Positions 17,481-24,826 of a DNA stretch of 24,903 bases are shown here, piece after piece. Both the position numbers and the translations under genes were made by a program. The notes below the pieces were generated by a model, which was not told the origin of the DNA, searched no databases, and saw only the letters and a program-made list of their open reading frames with translations. Positions within the stretch are counted from its first letter, which is position 1. Every line of letters starts with the position of its first letter. The stretch is from a bacterium (lineage in GTDB: Bacteria > Coprothermobacterota > Coprothermobacteria > Coprothermobacterales > JAADFF01), in the NCBI GenBank assembly GCA_027063755.1, contig JAMORD010000142.1, positions 1 through 24,903 on the forward strand, read 5' to 3'.

Positions 17481-17990
17481 ATGAGCAAATTTTTAAAGGT
17501 GCTGGCAATTTTTACCCTAATAGGAGTCATTATATTGTCTGCCCTTATAGGTGTTGAATATTATAAGGTGAAAGTTAGCAAGCAGGTCCCCCAGATTTAT
17601 ATTAAGCAGATAACAGTTAGTGCTGGAACCCCCTACGCTTTTACGCGTAGGGGGCTTTATTATAAGATTTATCCACCTGAAATTATAGATGGGGTCTTGT
17701 ATATGCGTATTGATGATATGCCTATAGTCTTCGGTGGCTATGGTAATGTCAGCTATGGTGTTATGCTTGATAATCCTCGTGACATTATCCTCAATCTTCC
17801 CAGTAAGAAATTGATGTTTCAAGAAGATAGCAAAAATGTTGTGCTGTCATTTGGTTCTACATATTTGCTTCACAAAATTGTCTGCAAAAATTATGTATGT
17901 ATGGCTCCCCTTAGAGAGGTAGCCGAGATATTAGGTCGCAAGGTTGATATGTATCAAAATGGTAAAGTGCTTGTTATTCACAATGAGTAG
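17481..17990 (+). CDS. Membrane-anchored protein with copper-amine-oxidase-N-like domain
   Basis: A 169-residue protein with a short basic N-terminus, one hydrophobic helix (about 6-27, VLAIFTLIGVIILSALIGV) and an extracytoplasmic remainder. The C-terminus APLREVAEILGRKVDMYQNGKVLVI resembles the repeat found in copper amine oxidase N-like (stalk) domains, common in secreted clostridial and Thermotoga proteins; it is not an enzyme motif. Role unknown, perhaps cell-wall related. The ribosome site is AAGGGGGG at 17465-17472. Codons 50-58 form a strong terminator-like hairpin. The 3' end overlaps the convergent cyclohydrolase gene by 13 nt, with no terminator at that junction. Confidence 0.8.
   Translation: MSKFLKVLAIFTLIGVIILSALIGVEYYKVKVSKQVPQIYIKQITVSAGTPYAFTRRGLYYKIYPPEIIDGVLYMRIDDMPIVFGGYGNVSYGVMLDNPRDIILNLPSKKLMFQEDSKNVVLSFGSTYLLHKIVCKNYVCMAPLREVAEILGRKVDMYQNGKVLVIHNE
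17629..17661 (+). terminator. Terminator-like hairpin within the coding sequence
   Basis: A perfect 10-bp stem CCCCCTACGC/GCGTAGGGGG (17629-17638, 17645-17654) with loop TTTTAC is followed by CTTTATT. It lies about 150 nt into the preceding ORF. It may stop part of the transcription coming from apgM, or it may simply be a secondary structure in the message. Confidence 0.5.
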
Positions 17991-18562
17991 CTTGCTAGGG
18001 TTTCGTATATTACCTTGTCGTATAGATATGTGCGTTTAAATGCCTTCAGTGCAAGTTCTTTTCGTATCTTAAGAGGAATCTTCTTGTTTTGTGAAATGTA
18101 ATCCATAACTATTTCATAATCTGTTGGTTCTATTAAAACTACAACATCTTTGTAGTTTTTTGCTGCTGCTCTAATGAGCGATACCCCGCCTATGTCTATA
18201 TATTCAAGTATTTGATCTTCGGTAAGCCCTTTTTCTGCCATTTTCTCAAATGGATATAAGTTAACTGCTACAATGTCTATTGGTTTTCCACCAATGGCCT
18301 CTAAGTCTTTCATGTCTCCGGAAAGATGTCTTCGTGCCAGTATACCCCCAAATACTTTGGGATGTAGTGTTTTCACCCTGCCCCCCATAATCTCAGGGAA
18401 ACCTGTATAAGTGCTTATGGGAAGCACAGGAATGTCGTGCTGGCACAATAAGTTTGCCGTTCCTCCCGTAGAGAGAATTTTTATACCATGTTCATGTAGA
18501 ACTTTGGCAAGTGAAACAATACCTGTTTTATCGGAAACTGATAACAAAGCCATATGATACAT
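17978..18562 (-). CDS. purH: Stand-alone IMP cyclohydrolase (PurH N-terminal domain)
   Basis: Closes FAICAR to IMP, the last step of purine synthesis. The 194-residue product corresponds to the complete N-terminal MGS-like domain of bifunctional PurH: ALLSVSDKTG, LSTGGTANLL, GFPEIMGGRVKTLHPKVFGGILARR, IVAVNLYPFE and DIGGVSLIRAAAKNYKDVVVL. It ends at ETLASYSL just where the transformylase domain would begin. That other half is a separate gene at 21786 on the opposite strand. ATGs at 18580, 18562 and 18553 are in frame. The AAAGGGGGAAGGGA tract (18577-18564) acts as ribosome site, so 18562 or 18553 is the start. It is divergent from the diguanylate cyclase gene. Confidence 0.93.
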   Translation of the reverse strand: MYHMALLSVSDKTGIVSLAKVLHEHGIKILSTGGTANLLCQHDIPVLPISTYTGFPEIMGGRVKTLHPKVFGGILARRHLSGDMKDLEAIGGKPIDIVAVNLYPFEKMAEKGLTEDQILEYIDIGGVSLIRAAAKNYKDVVVLIEPTDYEIVMDYISQNKKIPLKIRKELALKAFKRTYLYDKVIYETLASYSL

Positions 18563-18586
18563 ATCCCTTCCCCCTTTCATACTTTG

Positions 18587-18592
18587 TATAAT
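18587..18592 (+). promoter_or_regulatory. Possible -10 box of the diguanylate cyclase gene
   Basis: TATAAT lies 38 nt before the proposed GTG start, in the short region divergent from the cyclohydrolase gene. No convincing -35 is seen at 16-18 nt, so this is tentative. Confidence 0.35.
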
Positions 18593-18625
18593 GATAACAA
18601 GAAATGTGCTGTGGAGGGGAAAATT

Positions 18626-19792
18626 GTGCTAAAAAGTCATATACTTGCAGAAATTGTTGATGCGATGGTGCCATATATTGAACCTACTGTGATGGAGGAA
18701 ACTGTTAGAGAAATTCTTTTGAAAGGTGGATATGAAATACAACCATCTGTAGAGGGTGAAGGTATAATATTTCCCAGTGGTATATATCATATTTTCTATG
18801 ATGGAAAGAGGCAATATGATTGGGAGCATGTCATTGGTAAGCTATTTAGCATCTATGGTATGTCTCATGAGTTGTACGATGACTTAGCGGCTAAAATGAC
18901 GGTGCTTAGAACGCTTACCCACACATTATCTGTGCTTGCCGCAGCGTCTACCGATATGGAAGGCATAAGGAAAGTGGTTGATGTAATTACAGCAGAAACA
19001 CAGCTTACCGATTTAGTGCTTGCCGTGTATGATGAAAAACCTCATATCATATACGCGCCAGAATATACCGAAAAAAGTAATCTTGAGGGGATTGTTGAAC
19101 GCAGTATTTTTACGCCTTTTACCAAGGAAAAGTTAAATGGGCATTTCATATATCCCCACACATACACAACAGATGAAGGCATTTTCTTTATAGGTTTTTT
19201 GACAGATAAAGACATACATATAAGAGTGGAGCCTGAGCTGCTGGAATTGCTCTTATACATACTCATTCCTTTCCTTAGATCGGTTTACCTATCTGAAATA
19301 GCTTTTTACGATGCCCTTACCGGGGTACTTACCAGAGGAAAACTTATGGAATCACTGTCTATGCTGTGGGATTTGTCGCAGTATACAGATGCTTCGGTTG
19401 GAATTCTTATGTGTGACATTGATCACTTTAAACATGTCAACGATACATATGGTCATGATGTAGGGGATATCGTATTAAAAGAGGTTGCACAGCGTATAAA
19501 AAAGACAGCTCCCAAAGGTGCTATCGTGGGACGCTATGGGGGCGAGGAGTTTGTTGTGGCATTCCATGCCACATCTAAAGAACAGGCTCGCAAATATGCT
19601 GAGGCTATTAGGTTATTGGTGGCCGATGCACCTGTTGTGTATCCTAAAGGTGCGATAGATATCACACTATCTATTGGTGGTGCTCTTGGTTCTCCTGTCA
19701 AAGGTGAAACATTTGCCGAGGTGCTAAAACGAGCCGATGAAAACTTATATGAGGCCAAGAGAACAGGGCGAAATCGTGTAATTGTTAAGTAA
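18626..19792 (+). CDS. Diguanylate cyclase (GGDEF domain) with N-terminal sensor-like region
   Basis: Makes c-di-GMP from two GTP. From GTG 18626 (ribosome site GGAGGGG, 18613-18619) the protein has 388 residues; a longer frame from 18554 has no ribosome site and covers the promoter region. Residues about 1-220 have no membrane helix and include a GAF-like stretch (LAAASTDMEGIRKVVDVITAETQLTDLVLAVYD), so cytosolic sensing is likely. The GGDEF domain fills about 225-388: DALTGVLTRGKL, CDIDHFKHVNDTYGHDVGD and the active-site loop RYGGEEF. The RxxD inhibitory site normally just before GGEEF is absent (APKG there), suggesting no product inhibition. It precedes purF by 71 nt. The PilZ protein at 3162 is a possible reader. 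Confidence 0.92.
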   Translation: MLKSHILAEIVDAMVPYIEPTVMEETVREILLKGGYEIQPSVEGEGIIFPSGIYHIFYDGKRQYDWEHVIGKLFSIYGMSHELYDDLAAKMTVLRTLTHTLSVLAAASTDMEGIRKVVDVITAETQLTDLVLAVYDEKPHIIYAPEYTEKSNLEGIVERSIFTPFTKEKLNGHFIYPHTYTTDEGIFFIGFLTDKDIHIRVEPELLELLLYILIPFLRSVYLSEIAFYDALTGVLTRGKLMESLSMLWDLSQYTDASVGILMCDIDHFKHVNDTYGHDVGDIVLKEVAQRIKKTAPKGAIVGRYGGEEFVVAFHATSKEQARKYAEAIRLLVADAPVVYPKGAIDITLSIGGALGSPVKGETFAEVLKRADENLYEAKRTGRNRVIVK

Positions 19793-19798
19793 ACTGTA

Positions 19799-19827
19799 TT
19801 GTCATATTAGAGATTAGTTGCTATAAT
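19799..19827 (+). promoter_or_regulatory. Promoter of the purF operon
   Basis: TTGTCA (19799-19804), a 17-nt spacer and TATAAT (19822-19827) with TGC in front, an extended -10. This is the best promoter in the window. It lies in the 71-nt gap between the cyclase gene and purF and would give a leader of about 30 nt. There is no room for a purine riboswitch, and no clear repressor box is seen. Confidence 0.85.
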
Positions 19828-19863
19828 ATCCACATCAAAGCGGGGGGTTAGGGGGAATGCAGC

Positions 19864-21192
19864 GTGTGCGGTATTGCTGGTGCTTTTGATGTTGAAAAAG
19901 CGTTTTTTATACTTCACGATATTTTGCTTCATCTTCAACATAGAGGACAAGAATCTGTTGGTATTGTAATGGATAACTTTACCAGTATAAAAGGCCACGG
20001 CCTTGTTAAAGAGGTACTTACCGAGAAGAGTTTCATTGAGGGGCATACAGGTATAGGACATGTTAGATATTCCACAGTTGGGGGAACGGAAGAAATACAA
20101 CCGCTTATAGGTTATACAGGTAAAGATAAGATAGCTGTGGCCCACAATGGTACTATTCCCGATGCACACAAGCGACGGGAAACTATTCTTGACCGGGGGG
20201 CTGTTTTTTCTACCACAGTAGATTCAGAACTCTTTCTTCACTATGTGTCTATTGCGCCATTTGATGATGCCCTTGAAAGTGTGTTGTGGACATTGCAAGT
20301 AATTCCCGCTGCCTATAGTGTTCTTGTTCTTCACGAACAATTTATGCTTGGGGCGAGAGATCCTTATGGATATAGACCGCTGTTTTGGGGAAGATATGAT
20401 GGAGGATATGTTGTTGCATCAGAGGACTCTGCACTGGTGGCCCTGGGTGCTACAGATATCACAGAAATAAAGCGTGGTGAAGTTGTGCTATTTGAAAGGG
20501 GTAAAGAACCTAAGTGTATTAGCCTTTCTGTAGATAAACCTGGCAGGTTTTGTGTATTTGAGTATATCTATTTTGCCAGACCGGACTCCAATCTTGGAGG
20601 TATTAATGTTCATAAGGCCCGATTTGAAATGGGAAGATGGCTTTATAAAGAGCATAAGATACAGGCAGATATCGTTATACCAGTGCTTGACTCAGGCTTG
20701 TCTGGAGCTTTAGGCTTTTCATCTGAATCTGGTATCCCCATGGACTTTGGCCTCATGAGAAACAGATATATGGGACGCACATTTATTATGCCCACAGATA
20801 GAAAGTCCTCTGTTAGGAAAAAGCTTATACCTATACCTGAAGTTGTTAAGGGTAAAGATGTTGTTCTTATAGATGATTCTATTGTAAGGGGAAGCACGAT
20901 GGGGGTCATTGTATCTATGCTCAGAGAGGCTGGTGCCCGAAAGGTCATTGTTGGTATACATTCACCACCTGTGAAATATCCATGTTTTTATGGAATAGAT
21001 ACGGCTACACGCAAAGAACTTATAGCCTCTGACCATACCATTGAGGAGATACGCGATGTGATAGGGGCAGATGAGCTATTTTACCTTTCAATAGAAGGAC
21101 TTATAAAGGCAGTGGGTAGGGAGGATGTATGCCTTGCTTGTCTAAATGGACATTACGATACATGGGTGCCCGAGGTGGATAGTGGTGTATAA
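19864..21192 (+). CDS. purF: Amidophosphoribosyltransferase
   Basis: First committed step of purine synthesis: PRPP plus glutamine to phosphoribosylamine. The 442-residue protein starts MCGIAGAF, so the Cys nucleophile of the class II glutaminase domain is residue 2, exposed by Met removal alone with no B. subtilis-like propeptide. Other glutaminase motifs are HRGQESVG, GHVRYSTVGG and AHNGT. The phosphoribosyltransferase domain has the PRPP loop VVLIDDSIVRGSTMG. Cysteines in KYPCFYGID and CLACLNG match the [4Fe-4S] ligands of the B. subtilis-type enzyme. The start is GTG 19864, fixed by the Cys, with AGGGGGA upstream. It is the first gene of the pur operon. Confidence 0.96.
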   Translation: MCGIAGAFDVEKAFFILHDILLHLQHRGQESVGIVMDNFTSIKGHGLVKEVLTEKSFIEGHTGIGHVRYSTVGGTEEIQPLIGYTGKDKIAVAHNGTIPDAHKRRETILDRGAVFSTTVDSELFLHYVSIAPFDDALESVLWTLQVIPAAYSVLVLHEQFMLGARDPYGYRPLFWGRYDGGYVVASEDSALVALGATDITEIKRGEVVLFERGKEPKCISLSVDKPGRFCVFEYIYFARPDSNLGGINVHKARFEMGRWLYKEHKIQADIVIPVLDSGLSGALGFSSESGIPMDFGLMRNRYMGRTFIMPTDRKSSVRKKLIPIPEVVKGKDVVLIDDSIVRGSTMGVIVSMLREAGARKVIVGIHSPPVKYPCFYGIDTATRKELIASDHTIEEIRDVIGADELFYLSIEGLIKAVGREDVCLACLNGHYDTWVPEVDSGV

Positions 21193-21826
21193 CATTGTGG
21201 TACTTGCCTCAGGTAGTGGTTCAAATTTTGAGGCTATAGTCAGGCAGACACGCCTTTATTTTACAGATATTACCGTGTCAATGTTGATAACCGATAAAAA
21301 GAATGCGTTTGCCATCAAACGGGCAGAGTATTTGGGTATACCGTACACTCTTCTACCTAAACATCATCGGTTTCGTGTGCTTGATGAGATTATAGACACT
21401 GTAAAACCTCATCTTATAGTGCTTGCTGGTTTTATGAGGATAATACCCAGATGGTTTGTAGAAAAACACTTCGGTAAGATTGTCAATATTCATCCGTCAC
21501 TTCTTCCTTCATTTCCTGGTATGCATGCTATCAGGCAGGCTTATGACTATGGTGTTAGGGTTACCGGTATCACCATTCATTTCGTTGACAGCGGAGTAGA
21601 TACTGGACCTATTATCTTTCAGTATCCACTGATGGTGAACCCTGAGTGGGATATAGAGAAGTTGGAAGAGTATATCCACAGGTTAGAACATCGTTTCTAT
21701 ACACCGGTGATAAACGGACTGCTTCATTGTCCTTATGAAATACGGGGGAGAAAAGTTATTTTTACAGATAACAGGGGGGATGCATGTGATATTTTCAGAG
21801 TTGAAAGAGGGGAGTATATCCCTTAG
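21185..21826 (+). CDS. purN: Phosphoribosylglycinamide formyltransferase (folate-dependent)
   Basis: Transfers formyl from 10-formyl-tetrahydrofolate to GAR; 213 residues. Conserved motifs are NIVVLASGSGSNFEAI, the substrate/formyl site VNIHPSLLPSFPG (catalytic Asn and His) and TIHFVDSGVDTGPII (catalytic Asp). GTG codons at 21182 and 21185 are possible starts. GAGGTGGA at 21172-21179 favours 21185. It overlaps the end of purF by 8 nt and its own 3' end overlaps the AICAR transformylase gene by 41 nt, indicating tight coupling. Confidence 0.94.
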   Translation: MYNIVVLASGSGSNFEAIVRQTRLYFTDITVSMLITDKKNAFAIKRAEYLGIPYTLLPKHHRFRVLDEIIDTVKPHLIVLAGFMRIIPRWFVEKHFGKIVNIHPSLLPSFPGMHAIRQAYDYGVRVTGITIHFVDSGVDTGPIIFQYPLMVNPEWDIEKLEEYIHRLEHRFYTPVINGLLHCPYEIRGRKVIFTDNRGDACDIFRVERGEYIP

Positions 21827-22685
21827 GTATGGAGAAAATCCTCATGAAAAGGCATGGGTGTATGGTGAACCGGCATTCCAGCTTCTTCATGAAGGACGAC
21901 AGATTTCTTACAACAACCTGCTTGATGCCGATGCGGCGTGGGCTGTTGCACAACATTTAAAAGACATAGCACCGTTTGGAGCTGTAGCACTAAAACACCA
22001 GACACCGTGTGGAGTGGCTGTTGCCGATACACCAGAAGAAGCGGTAAGAAAGGCAATAGATGCCGATGCAGAATCTGCCTATGGTGGAATACTGGCAGTG
22101 AACTTTCCGTTCACTTTGTCTGTTGCCAAATCTTACAAGAAATATTTGGAGGTTATTGTAGCGCCAGAGTTTACCGAAGAAGCTCTTGCATATCTTAGGA
22201 AAAAGAAAGTGCGTCTTATAGTTCCCAGTAGCTACAACGCCCTTGTAGGAAAACCTGCTTTTGGGGCTTTAGTTGTTTCTGAAAGAATACTTCCACCGCT
22301 GGAGTTTCAGCTACAGGTTGGAGAGCCCGTGTCCGATGATGTTGTGATGGATATGAAGCTTGCGTATATTGCCGTAGAAGGTGTAAAGTCCAATGCCATT
22401 GTCATTGTAAAAAATGGTGTCACTGTAGGTATGGGTACGGGGCAACCCTCTCGGAAACGGGCAGCGTGGATTGCCACAACACTTGCAGGTGATAAAGCAC
22501 ATGGGGCTGTTGCCGCTTCTGATGCCTTCTTTCCATTTCCCGATGGGCTAGAGATATTGGCAGAGGCAGGGGTTGGTGTTGTTGTAGCCCCTTTGGGTTC
22601 TAAAAGAGATGAAGAGGTTTTAAAGAGGGCTGAAGAGCTGGGTATTACTTTCTACTCTGCACCGTCTCGTGTATTTAGACACTAA
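21786..22685 (+). CDS. purH: Stand-alone AICAR transformylase (PurH C-terminal domain)
   Basis: Formylates AICAR to FAICAR using 10-formyl-tetrahydrofolate. The 299-residue product is only the C-terminal domain of PurH: SLRYGENPHEKAWVY, ISYNNLLDADAAWAV, catalytic Lys70-His71 in ALKHQTPCGVA (usually KHxNPCG), AESAYGGILAVN, GMGTGQPSRKRAA and ASDAFFPFPDGLE. No MGS-like domain precedes it; the upstream 41 nt belong to purN in another frame. GTG 21786 is preferred, being 6 nt after GGGGGG (21774-21779). ATG 21780 touches that tract, and ATG 21735 lacks a ribosome site. The cyclohydrolase partner is at 17978-18562 on the other strand. Confidence 0.94.
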   Translation: MIFSELKEGSISLRYGENPHEKAWVYGEPAFQLLHEGRQISYNNLLDADAAWAVAQHLKDIAPFGAVALKHQTPCGVAVADTPEEAVRKAIDADAESAYGGILAVNFPFTLSVAKSYKKYLEVIVAPEFTEEALAYLRKKKVRLIVPSSYNALVGKPAFGALVVSERILPPLEFQLQVGEPVSDDVVMDMKLAYIAVEGVKSNAIVIVKNGVTVGMGTGQPSRKRAAWIATTLAGDKAHGAVAASDAFFPFPDGLEILAEAGVGVVVAPLGSKRDEEVLKRAEELGITFYSAPSRVFRH

Positions 22686-22697
22686 GGAGGGGTTAAT

Positions 22698-23885
22698 ATG
22701 AAGATTGTTATAGTAGGCAGTGGTGGAAGAGAACATGCTATGGGATGGGCTTTTTATAGAGAGGGCTATGATGTTTACTATGTGCCCGGTAATCCTGGCA
22801 CTGCACGACATGGTACCAATATTGCTGAAATACCAGATGAAGAGGATATCTTAGTTATTCCCGGCTCTGAGACATATATTGCCGGTGGTATAGCCGATGG
22901 CAAAGACAATGTCTTTGCACCAGATAGCAGGGGGGCTCGTCTTGAGTCTTCTAAGATATGGGCAAAAGAGTTTATGAAAAGACACGGTATACCTACAGCT
23001 CCGTTTATTGTGGCAAACACTCCTAATGAGCTGAAAACTGCTCTAAAATCGTTTTCACCTCCTTATGTAATTAAGGCCGATGGACTGGCCGGTGGAAAAG
23101 GTGTCATCATAGAAGATGACTTTAATAGGGCCCTTGAGAAGGGAACTATGCTTATTGAGGGAAGCCTTCTGAAAGGTGTTAAAGGGCCAGTTGTGGTTGA
23201 AGAGTATTTACCCGGTGTTGAACTATCTGCTATGGCTGTTGCCTCGGGAGAACACTTTGCGTTGTTTCCTTTTACACGCGACTATAAACGGGCATGCGAT
23301 GGTGGAAAGGGTCCCAATACAGGTGGTATGGGGGCTGTTGGACCGATTAATGTTGATAAGGGTATTGTAGACCAGATAGAAAAGATATATCGTTTGACAC
23401 TTGATGGTCTGAAATCTGAAGGTATTTCTTATAAAGGCTTTTTATATATAGGACTGATGATAAAAGATGACAAGGTTTATGTGCTTGAATACAATGTTCG
23501 CATGGGGGATCCCGAAACAGAGATTATTGTGATGATGAATCCCTCTGGCTTTGTAAGAAGTGTTCTAAGTGCATACAGAGGAGAATCCATTCAGCCGATT
23601 GTTCCTAAGTGTTTTGCCATAGATGTTGTTGTTGCCTCAGAGGGATATCCACTATCGCCTCGTAAGGGTCAGGTTATTGAAAAAGAGCCAACGGGATTTG
23701 CCTTTTATGCTGGTGTAAAGGAAGAAAATGGGAAACTTATTGTTTCTGGTGGCAGGGTCTTCCACTGTATGGGGACAGGTATGACACCAGAAGAGGCACG
23801 CACATCGGCCTACAGGTGCGCAGAGTCTGTATCTTTCCCTGGTGCATTTTTTAGAAGGGATATCGGAGAGCTTATTGAGAGGTGA
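22698..23885 (+). CDS. purD: Phosphoribosylamine-glycine ligase (GAR synthetase)
   Basis: ATP-grasp ligase joining phosphoribosylamine and glycine; 395 residues, a little under the usual 420 or so. Motifs are IVGSGGREHAMGW, YYVPGNPGTA, LESSKIWAKEFMKRHGIPTA, the ATP loop VIKADGLAGGKGVII, VVEEYLPGVELSAMA, DGGKGPNTGGMGAVGP and EYNVRMGDPETE. The segment around residues 50-75 (ILVIPGSETYIAGGIADG) diverges from the common VGPExPLxxG wording but keeps its layout. ATG 22698 has AAGGAGGGG upstream, 12 nt after the previous stop. Confidence 0.95.
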   Translation: MKIVIVGSGGREHAMGWAFYREGYDVYYVPGNPGTARHGTNIAEIPDEEDILVIPGSETYIAGGIADGKDNVFAPDSRGARLESSKIWAKEFMKRHGIPTAPFIVANTPNELKTALKSFSPPYVIKADGLAGGKGVIIEDDFNRALEKGTMLIEGSLLKGVKGPVVVEEYLPGVELSAMAVASGEHFALFPFTRDYKRACDGGKGPNTGGMGAVGPINVDKGIVDQIEKIYRLTLDGLKSEGISYKGFLYIGLMIKDDKVYVLEYNVRMGDPETEIIVMMNPSGFVRSVLSAYRGESIQPIVPKCFAIDVVVASEGYPLSPRKGQVIEKEPTGFAFYAGVKEENGKLIVSGGRVFHCMGTGMTPEEARTSAYRCAESVSFPGAFFRRDIGELIER

Positions 23886-23890
23886 GAACA

Positions 23891-24826
23891 TTGAAAACAT
23901 ATACATACAGGCAAGCTGGTGTAGATGTGAAAAAGGGTGATGAATTTGCCAGCTACATTAAGGAAAGGGTAAGTGTTCCCGACTGGCTTATAAAGGAGCC
24001 AACGGGGTATGCTTCTATACTGTCATTTGTCAATCCACCTATTGTTGTGACAGCCGATGGTATAGGCACGAAGATTTTGCTTCATACGAAATATGAGCGT
24101 TTTAGAGATGCAGCTATGGACCTTGTGGCCATGAACTACAACGATATTGTTGCCGTCGGCGGTAGACCATTGGCTTTTTTAGACTATCTTGGGGTTTCTG
24201 ATATAGGTGGGTTTTTAAAGAATTTTATAGAGACCCTTGCTGGAGTACTTGAAGAGGTTGATATGTACCTTGTTGCCGGTGAAACGGCGGAGATGCCGGA
24301 CATATACGACAAAGGGCATTGGGATGCTGCAGGATTTGCCATTGGTATATGGGAGAAAAAACTACCTATAGATGATATTCAAATAGGTGATGTCATCATG
24401 GGTATTCCTTCATCAGGTTTTCACTCCAATGGTTGGAGTCTTATTAGAAAGATTATTGATGAAGAGAACATAGATATTGAAAAACTTCTATTTGATCTCC
24501 TTGCAGGTACTCGTATCTACAAAGAGGCTATACAGTTATTTCCATATGTTAAGGCCATAGCTCATGTTACCGGTGGAGGTATTAAGAGGGCGCTGAGAAG
24601 GGTACTCAAAGATAAGGGCTATCGCATAGGACTACCACAGCGGGATTTTATAAACTGGATACTTGGCTATGTAGATTTTGAAGAGGCCCTAAATACATTT
24701 AATATGGGTATTGGCCTCATAGTTGTGGTGTCACCTGAAAATATAGACCATGTTCTTCGTGTATATGAAGATGCCCTCATTATAGGCAAAGTATCACCAT
24801 TTATTGAAGTGAAATATGGCTTATAG
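23891..24826 (+). CDS. purM: Phosphoribosylformylglycinamidine cyclo-ligase (AIR synthetase)
   Basis: ATP-dependent closure of FGAM to AIR; 311 residues, shorter than the common 330-350. Recognisable parts are YRQAGVDVKKGDEF, VTADGIGTKILL (family TDGVGTK), DLVAMNYNDIVAVGGRPLAFLDYLGV, VAGETAEMPDIY, GIPSSGFHSNGWSLIRK and AHVTGGGIKRALRR. GTG 23882 is in frame but lies within the ribosome site AGAGGTGA that also ends purD. TTG 23891 is therefore the start, 5 nt after the purD stop. Confidence 0.93.
   Translation: MKTYTYRQAGVDVKKGDEFASYIKERVSVPDWLIKEPTGYASILSFVNPPIVVTADGIGTKILLHTKYERFRDAAMDLVAMNYNDIVAVGGRPLAFLDYLGVSDIGGFLKNFIETLAGVLEEVDMYLVAGETAEMPDIYDKGHWDAAGFAIGIWEKKLPIDDIQIGDVIMGIPSSGFHSNGWSLIRKIIDEENIDIEKLLFDLLAGTRIYKEAIQLFPYVKAIAHVTGGGIKRALRRVLKDKGYRIGLPQRDFINWILGYVDFEEALNTFNMGIGLIVVVSPENIDHVLRVYEDALIIGKVSPFIEVKYGL

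Follow-up and report, generated by a model that had tools for sequence, protein, structure and literature searches.

A 24,903-nucleotide stretch of a Coprothermobacterota genome (GenBank assembly GCA_027063755.1, contig JAMORD010000142.1; hereafter the window) carries, in place of the bifunctional purine biosynthesis enzyme PurH, two genes on opposite strands, one for a predicted standalone IMP cyclohydrolase (IMPCH, P0001) and one for a predicted standalone AICAR transformylase (AICARFT, P0002). The best explanation, to which we assign a probability of about 0.76, is that they form a two-gene replacement of the Thermotogales type, which was acquired laterally when its halves were already separate. 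An earlier note on this DNA had asked whether fission, transfer or an ancestral unfused state is involved. The transfer of a Thermotogales-type system whose halves had already separated is best supported by the trees and the operon described below. For the AICARFT half, fission of a native gene is rejected. Fused proteins surround each half in the trees or count among its relatives, which makes an ancestral unfused state unlikely.

In the proposed mechanism, AICARFT, produced from a purF-purN-AICARFT-purD-purM operon, would formylate AICAR with 10-formyltetrahydrofolate and release FAICAR, and the separately transcribed IMPCH would cyclise free FAICAR to IMP. Nothing in the results favours the non-covalent complex that the earlier note had raised as a question, and such a complex of the two proteins would not be required, since separated PurH domains are active alone and human PurH operates without channelling (PMC6797443). 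As for its history, a short 'Thermotoga-type' PurH of Thermotogota would have been left with AICARFT after losing its IMPCH domain, and a second PurH copy would have kept IMPCH while its AICARFT domain decayed. Lateral transfer would then have brought AICARFT within the operon, and IMPCH as a lone gene, to a genus of Coprothermobacterota.

Affinities of the operon and of the IMPCH gene

AICARFT of the window showed 66% identity to the full C-terminal half of Thermotoga maritima PurH (1zcz) versus 42% to fused PurH from Coprothermobacterota. In the phylum sample of nine Coprothermobacterota genomes, the other members having PurH carried a fused form, unlike that of the window. Thermotogota genomes were reached via the T. 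maritima CheY marker (verified against 1tmy), and PurH was searched in 101 of them; a scan with the pattern LRYGENPH was too general and returned no Thermotogota, and its matches were used solely as outgroups. In the AICARFT tree, the window protein fell in a 27-row Thermotogales clade (support 100/100) apart from all other PurH, and its grouping with its own phylum was rejected by the approximately unbiased (AU) test (p = 1.1e-5).

The gene order of the window operon is that of Thermotogales, with identities of 50-67%, whereas a single-contig genome of the same order, which we take to be Coprothermobacter proteolyticus DSM 5265, has the order purF-purM-purN-fused purH-purD and identities to the window of 35-43%. 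PurF was 52-62% identical to Thermotogales and 43% to C. proteolyticus, the corresponding values for PurM being 55-62% and 35%, and PurD scored 483 bits against the T. maritima structure 1vkz versus 251 bits against the next-best structure. The Thermotogales clade including the window was recovered in the concatenated operon tree (100/100). Judged by gene order and clade, the pur operon of the window is of the Thermotogales type.

For IMPCH, the best match beyond its own genus was the standalone IMPCH of a Thermotogaceae genome, G407 (54% identity), and the fused PurH proteins of Coprothermobacterota were 49-50% identical to it. In trees of two taxon sets, it was placed in a clade of Thermotogota IMPCH from standalone genes and decayed PurH (99/99 and 100/98), as the sister of the G407 protein (95/86 and 98/87); PurH of G407 is also split. 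The short IMPCH N-terminal domain of the Thermotoga-type fused PurH was far from the window protein in the tree. From the weak match of the window IMPCH to 1zcz, it was thought at an early stage that IMPCH was a trimmed native PurH and AICARFT alone was foreign, an idea demoted by the IMPCH paralogues of Thermotogota.

Among the 101 Thermotogota genomes, a short fused PurH (455-477 aa) was found in Thermotoga and family f265, a standalone AICARFT (~299-339 aa) in Fervidobacterium, Thermosipho, g341 and G407, and an ordinary PurH (~505 aa) in other families. The Thermotogales with the short fused PurH or a standalone AICARFT all keep the order purF-purN-purH-purD-purM, the exception being G407, in which purD and purM are not adjacent. 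The IMPCH genes are found in various states. Family f265 has a standalone IMPCH in addition to its short fused PurH, and G397 and G434 have an IMPCH with a decayed AICARFT domain alongside a normal fused PurH; the tail of the G397 protein is still matched end to end by PRK00881. In Fervidobacterium and g341, a tail of ~230 aa occupies the AICARFT position without AICARFT motifs and has no Pfam match, and in Thermosipho and G407 the tail is gone and IMPCH is bare. Complementary decay of two PurH copies would be the simplest account of the split in Thermotogota, with an order of events that we infer from these forms. Since nearly every intermediate can be read in this phylum (short fused PurH plus extra IMPCH, half or fully decayed second domain, bare halves), the fission of a bifunctional enzyme becomes testable stepwise.

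G397 also has a fused-purH operon that groups with Thermotogota family f52, and has retained a Thermotogales IMPCH gene whose AICARFT domain is half decayed (L213 6638-8041, L197). A Thermotogaceae protein of 351-382 aa with faint IMPCH similarity (G407:C18:42757-43080, G412:C15, G404:C83, G439:C5, G442, G450 and G472) is perhaps a further decayed PurH paralogue. G343 was rejected as a case of split PurH; both of its matches sit at contig ends.

The direction of transfer was likely from Thermotogales to the genus of the window, because the IMPCH tree, and the fact that the type is rare in other groups, suggest that the window is nested in Thermotogales. Several points weigh against the best explanation. 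Trees holding Thermotogales together without the window were not rejected for the operon (p-AU 0.119) or for IMPCH (p-AU 0.411). A tree in which all Coprothermobacterota IMPCH form one group is 39 log units worse, yet it is not formally rejected by the AU test (p-AU 0.132), and the Thermotogota-like origin of the IMPCH half is for this reason less certain than that of the AICARFT half. The genome of the window is 88% complete and an extra purH could be missing from it; the congener described below also has none. Besides, the genus labels Thermosipho and Fervidobacterium are our presumed identifications of these relatives.

Had the transfer run the other way, or had Thermotogota and Coprothermobacterota inherited the split system from a shared ancestor, its source would not lie within Thermotogales. 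This would fit the AICARFT and operon trees, which do not resolve the position of the window branch relative to the main Thermotogales groups, and some phylogenomic trees group the two phyla together (PMC10356935). However, the ordinary fused PurH of other Coprothermobacterota and of non-Thermotogales Thermotogota would then call for many losses, and IMPCH is nested beside that of G407; we thus regard this rival as unlikely. Quite unlikely is a mixed origin, in which AICARFT arrived with the Thermotogales operon and IMPCH is the trimmed remnant of a native fused PurH. Although the placement of IMPCH with its own phylum survives the AU test and its identity to the fused PurH there is 49-50%, the native placement is worse by 39 log units, the clade with the Thermotogota paralogues and the split G407 is supported in both taxon sets, and the best match beyond the genus is from Thermotogota.

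Catalytic residues and integrity of the two genes

IMPCH consists of an MGS domain (PF02142, 20-133) and the first 58 positions of PF01808, and its match to NF002049 covers 4-194 of 510. The catalytic residues of human IMPCH are Lys66, Tyr104, Asp125 and Lys137 (PMC3261824); all four are kept in the window protein as K70, Y109, D129 and K141. From its domains and residues, it is a PurH2-type IMPCH, and the conversion of FAICAR to IMP is predicted. AICARFT matches PF01808 at 77-309, and its alignment to 1zcz 175-464 reaches the last residue. Its motifs, assigned by motif and not by structure, are RYGENPH at 14, KHQ at 70 and the C-terminal RVFRH at 295. A domain complete to the C-terminus with the substrate-binding Arg-Tyr and Lys-His motifs and the C-terminal Arg points to a PurH1-type AICARFT. 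The two halves scored 247 and 265 bits against the bifunctional PurH profile (NF002049/TIGR00355; cut-off 402), and AICARFT scored 110.8 bits against the standalone AICARFT profile PRK07106 (NF005492; cut-off 415). As each half falls far under the purH cut-off in annotation pipelines, such genomes may wrongly be called purine auxotrophs.

The catalytic Tyr varies within the Thermotogota IMPCH clade. Among the genomes examined that bear the pathway and have a single IMPCH, it is present in 16 of 16 rows. Where the genome has another PurH or lacks AICARFT, Ser, Arg or Lys replaces it in 10 of 11 rows (the sole exception being G397); no more than two or three independent events underlie these rows. 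Arg or Lys occupies the Tyr104 position in the IMPCH paralogues beside fused PurH in f265 (L207, L208 and L209), f175 (L215 and L216) and G434 (L217). Four Fervidobacteriaceae genomes of g332 (G403, G436, G414 and G421; L203, L210, L211 and L212), which represent four species and are 96-99% complete, keep an IMPCH-like gene with Tyr changed to Ser, and no AICARFT domain, PurP or purC was found in them. The Tyr-less paralogues likely have a second role, and their retention points to an unrecognised function. A fuller account, which would combine the reciprocal decay of two PurH paralogues, the transfer of an operon and a satellite gene between phyla, and a non-catalytic role of the Tyr-less sisters, is tentative and on balance doubtful.

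Since Tyr-less relatives are found alongside fused PurH or in genomes that lack the pathway, the IMPCH homologue of the window might itself be a paralogue with another role, another enzyme closing the ring. This appears improbable; the window protein retains the four catalytic residues, unlike 10 of the 11 rows from genomes that have another PurH or lack AICARFT, and its own genome yielded neither a further IMPCH nor PurO.

The genome, of which the window is contig C142, measures 1.5 Mb in 251 contigs. Within this genome, PF01808 matched only the two PurH-half loci and PurO (PF07826) gave no match; PurP (PF06849) gave no match in this genome or in a congener (G006, 93% complete), and purC is present in both. 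The purine pathway therefore most likely runs through the separate IMPCH and AICARFT genes. The congener carries both halves with the same neighbours, and its contigs break exactly where the IMPCH and AICARFT blocks would join. Between the two species, IMPCH is 80% and AICARFT 95% identical. The proportions of nonsynonymous and synonymous differences in IMPCH were 0.107 (pN) and 0.76 (pS, saturated), and dN/dS in AICARFT was 0.12; both halves are under purifying selection. These results bear out the earlier note, which had described two opposite-strand PurH genes that keep their motifs and look functional and had proposed a search for another purH, purO or purP: both open reading frames (ORFs) were confirmed and, at the sequence level, so was the integrity of the halves.

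Within purF, at 20320-20720, the nucleotide identity to the congener (L220) rises from 0.72-0.85 to 0.90-0.97. The raised identity continues to purM with a single dip to 0.82 in purD, a pattern like interspecies recombination of the tract.

A span of 4.7 kb holds both halves, and the cut between them falls at the domain boundary, as would be expected if the genus had broken its own fused PurH in place and rearranged the halves to opposite strands. Such a fission is very improbable. It is refuted for AICARFT, whose kinship with the phylum's fused PurH is rejected (p-AU 1.1e-5); moreover, the entire operon is foreign, and the nearest fused relatives of the halves differ, the Thermotoga-type N-terminal domain being far from the window IMPCH. 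An assembly or binning artefact, which the fragmented assembly might suggest, is refuted by the same genes and neighbours in the independently assembled congener (72-97% nucleotide identity), and complete single-contig Thermotogota genomes are split too, so that its probability is negligible.

Gene arrangement of the locus

The features of the locus are listed in the table. A GGDEF diguanylate cyclase gene, purF and purN lie between IMPCH and AICARFT, as the earlier note had reported and as the domain matches confirmed, and purD and purM follow downstream.

Table. Genes and promoter-like site around the split PurH in the window
Feature	Position	Strand	Basis
169-aa protein, no family assigned; convergent with the IMPCH gene, 3' overlap of 13 bases	17481..17990	+	congener L009:992-1501
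IMPCH (P0001), PurH2/PurJ-type, MGS fold, standalone, 194 aa (predicted)	17978..18562	-	PF02142, PF01808 1-58, K/Y/D/K catalytic set, G407 kinship
Diguanylate cyclase (GGDEF), neighbour between IMPCH and purF, outside the enzyme pair	18554..19792	+	PF00990; same neighbour in congener L009/L221
Promoter-like site TTGTCA-17-TATAAT, TG ahead of second hexamer, 5' of purF	19799..19827	+	consensus scan
purF, amidophosphoribosyltransferase, Thermotogales type	19864..21192	+	TIGR01134 above cut-off; identity comparison
purN, GAR transformylase	21182..21826 (ORF open from 21146)	+	TIGR00639 above cut-off; start matches congener ORF L008:2153-2797
AICARFT (P0002), PurH1-type, standalone, 299 aa (predicted)	~21786..22685	+	PF01808 77-309, 66% identity to 1zcz C-half, Thermotogales clade
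purD, GAR synthetase, Thermotogales type	22698..23885	+	TIGR00877 above cut-off; best structure 1vkz
purM, AIR synthetase, Thermotogales type	23882..24826	+	TIGR00878 above cut-off; identity comparison

The ORF of IMPCH is open to 18580, and the start at 18562 was preferred because the Shine-Dalgarno-like GGGGGAAGGG precedes the ATG there. AICARFT starts at ATG 21780 or GTG 21786, with an overlap of ~41 bases with the end of purN. The contig ends past purM; in the congener, purC comes after purM. The expression of IMPCH and AICARFT is probably independent, since they lie on opposite strands and a promoter-like site stands just 5' of purF. That this site would drive the AICARFT operon separately from the IMPCH gene is only suggestive; the consensus scan of the region returned 12 sites against 9.2 expected. 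The 169-aa protein had no Pfam or NCBIfam match and is kept in the congener, and an Rfam search of the window gave no match.

Comparison with known systems

PurH has been described as 'almost uniformly' bifunctional outside archaea (PMC6797443). Across the genomes examined here, split PurH recurs in bacteria. The bacterial case of the earlier note does not stand alone: Thermosipho, Fervidobacterium, g341 and G407 are split likewise, and unrelated splits occur elsewhere. In our literature search, no paper was found that links Thermosipho to purine and IMP cyclohydrolase, Fervidobacterium to purH, or PurH to gene fission.

Standalone IMPCH of ~200 aa also turned up in other lineages when 386 genomes from across bacteria were surveyed. 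Three genomes (G104, G131 and G272), and probably also G151 and G288, have such an IMPCH together with a separate AICARFT of ~435 aa (27% identity), which is related to NF005492/PRK07106 yet under its cut-off. The IMPCH of these three genomes, often beside purD, lies outside the Thermotogota clade. They thus resemble the window in having two separate proteins and differ from it in the type of AICARFT and in the tree position of IMPCH, from which it follows, as far as these sequences indicate, that split PurH has several origins in bacteria. Loci of this second, unrelated split are L234, L235 and L229, and L237, L239 and L242. ForH (6nko, 216 aa), which we take to be a formycin biosynthesis protein, is like the window IMPCH a standalone bacterial protein of the IMPCH fold; the match to it (100 bits) was weaker than that to ordinary PurH.

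In archaea, PurH1 and PurH2 occur as separate proteins (PMC3261824, PMC6797443), and AF1811, the PurH2 of Archaeoglobus, is an active unfused IMPCH (PMC6797443). Archaeoglobi have PurH2 with PurP and Halobacteria have PurH1 with PurO (PMC3261824), whereas the window pairs PurH1 with PurH2. The halobacterial PurN-PurH1 is like the window in that the AICARFT domain is encoded apart from IMPCH.

The closest counterparts are found in Thermotogota. PurH of T. maritima (1zcz) matches the window AICARFT end to end, and the operon order is equal in a Thermotoga genome (G428); however, T. maritima PurH has a fused short IMPCH domain, which the window AICARFT lacks, IMPCH being encoded separately and belonging to another PurH lineage. 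Thermosipho, Fervidobacterium, g341 and G407 are like the window in having a standalone Thermotoga-type AICARFT in the same operon and an unlinked IMPCH of the same clade. They differ from it in two respects. The IMPCH of Fervidobacterium and g341 has a decayed domain at the AICARFT position, whereas that of the window is bare, and the halves in these Thermotogota are far apart or on different contigs, whereas those in the window are divergent and 3.2 kb apart.

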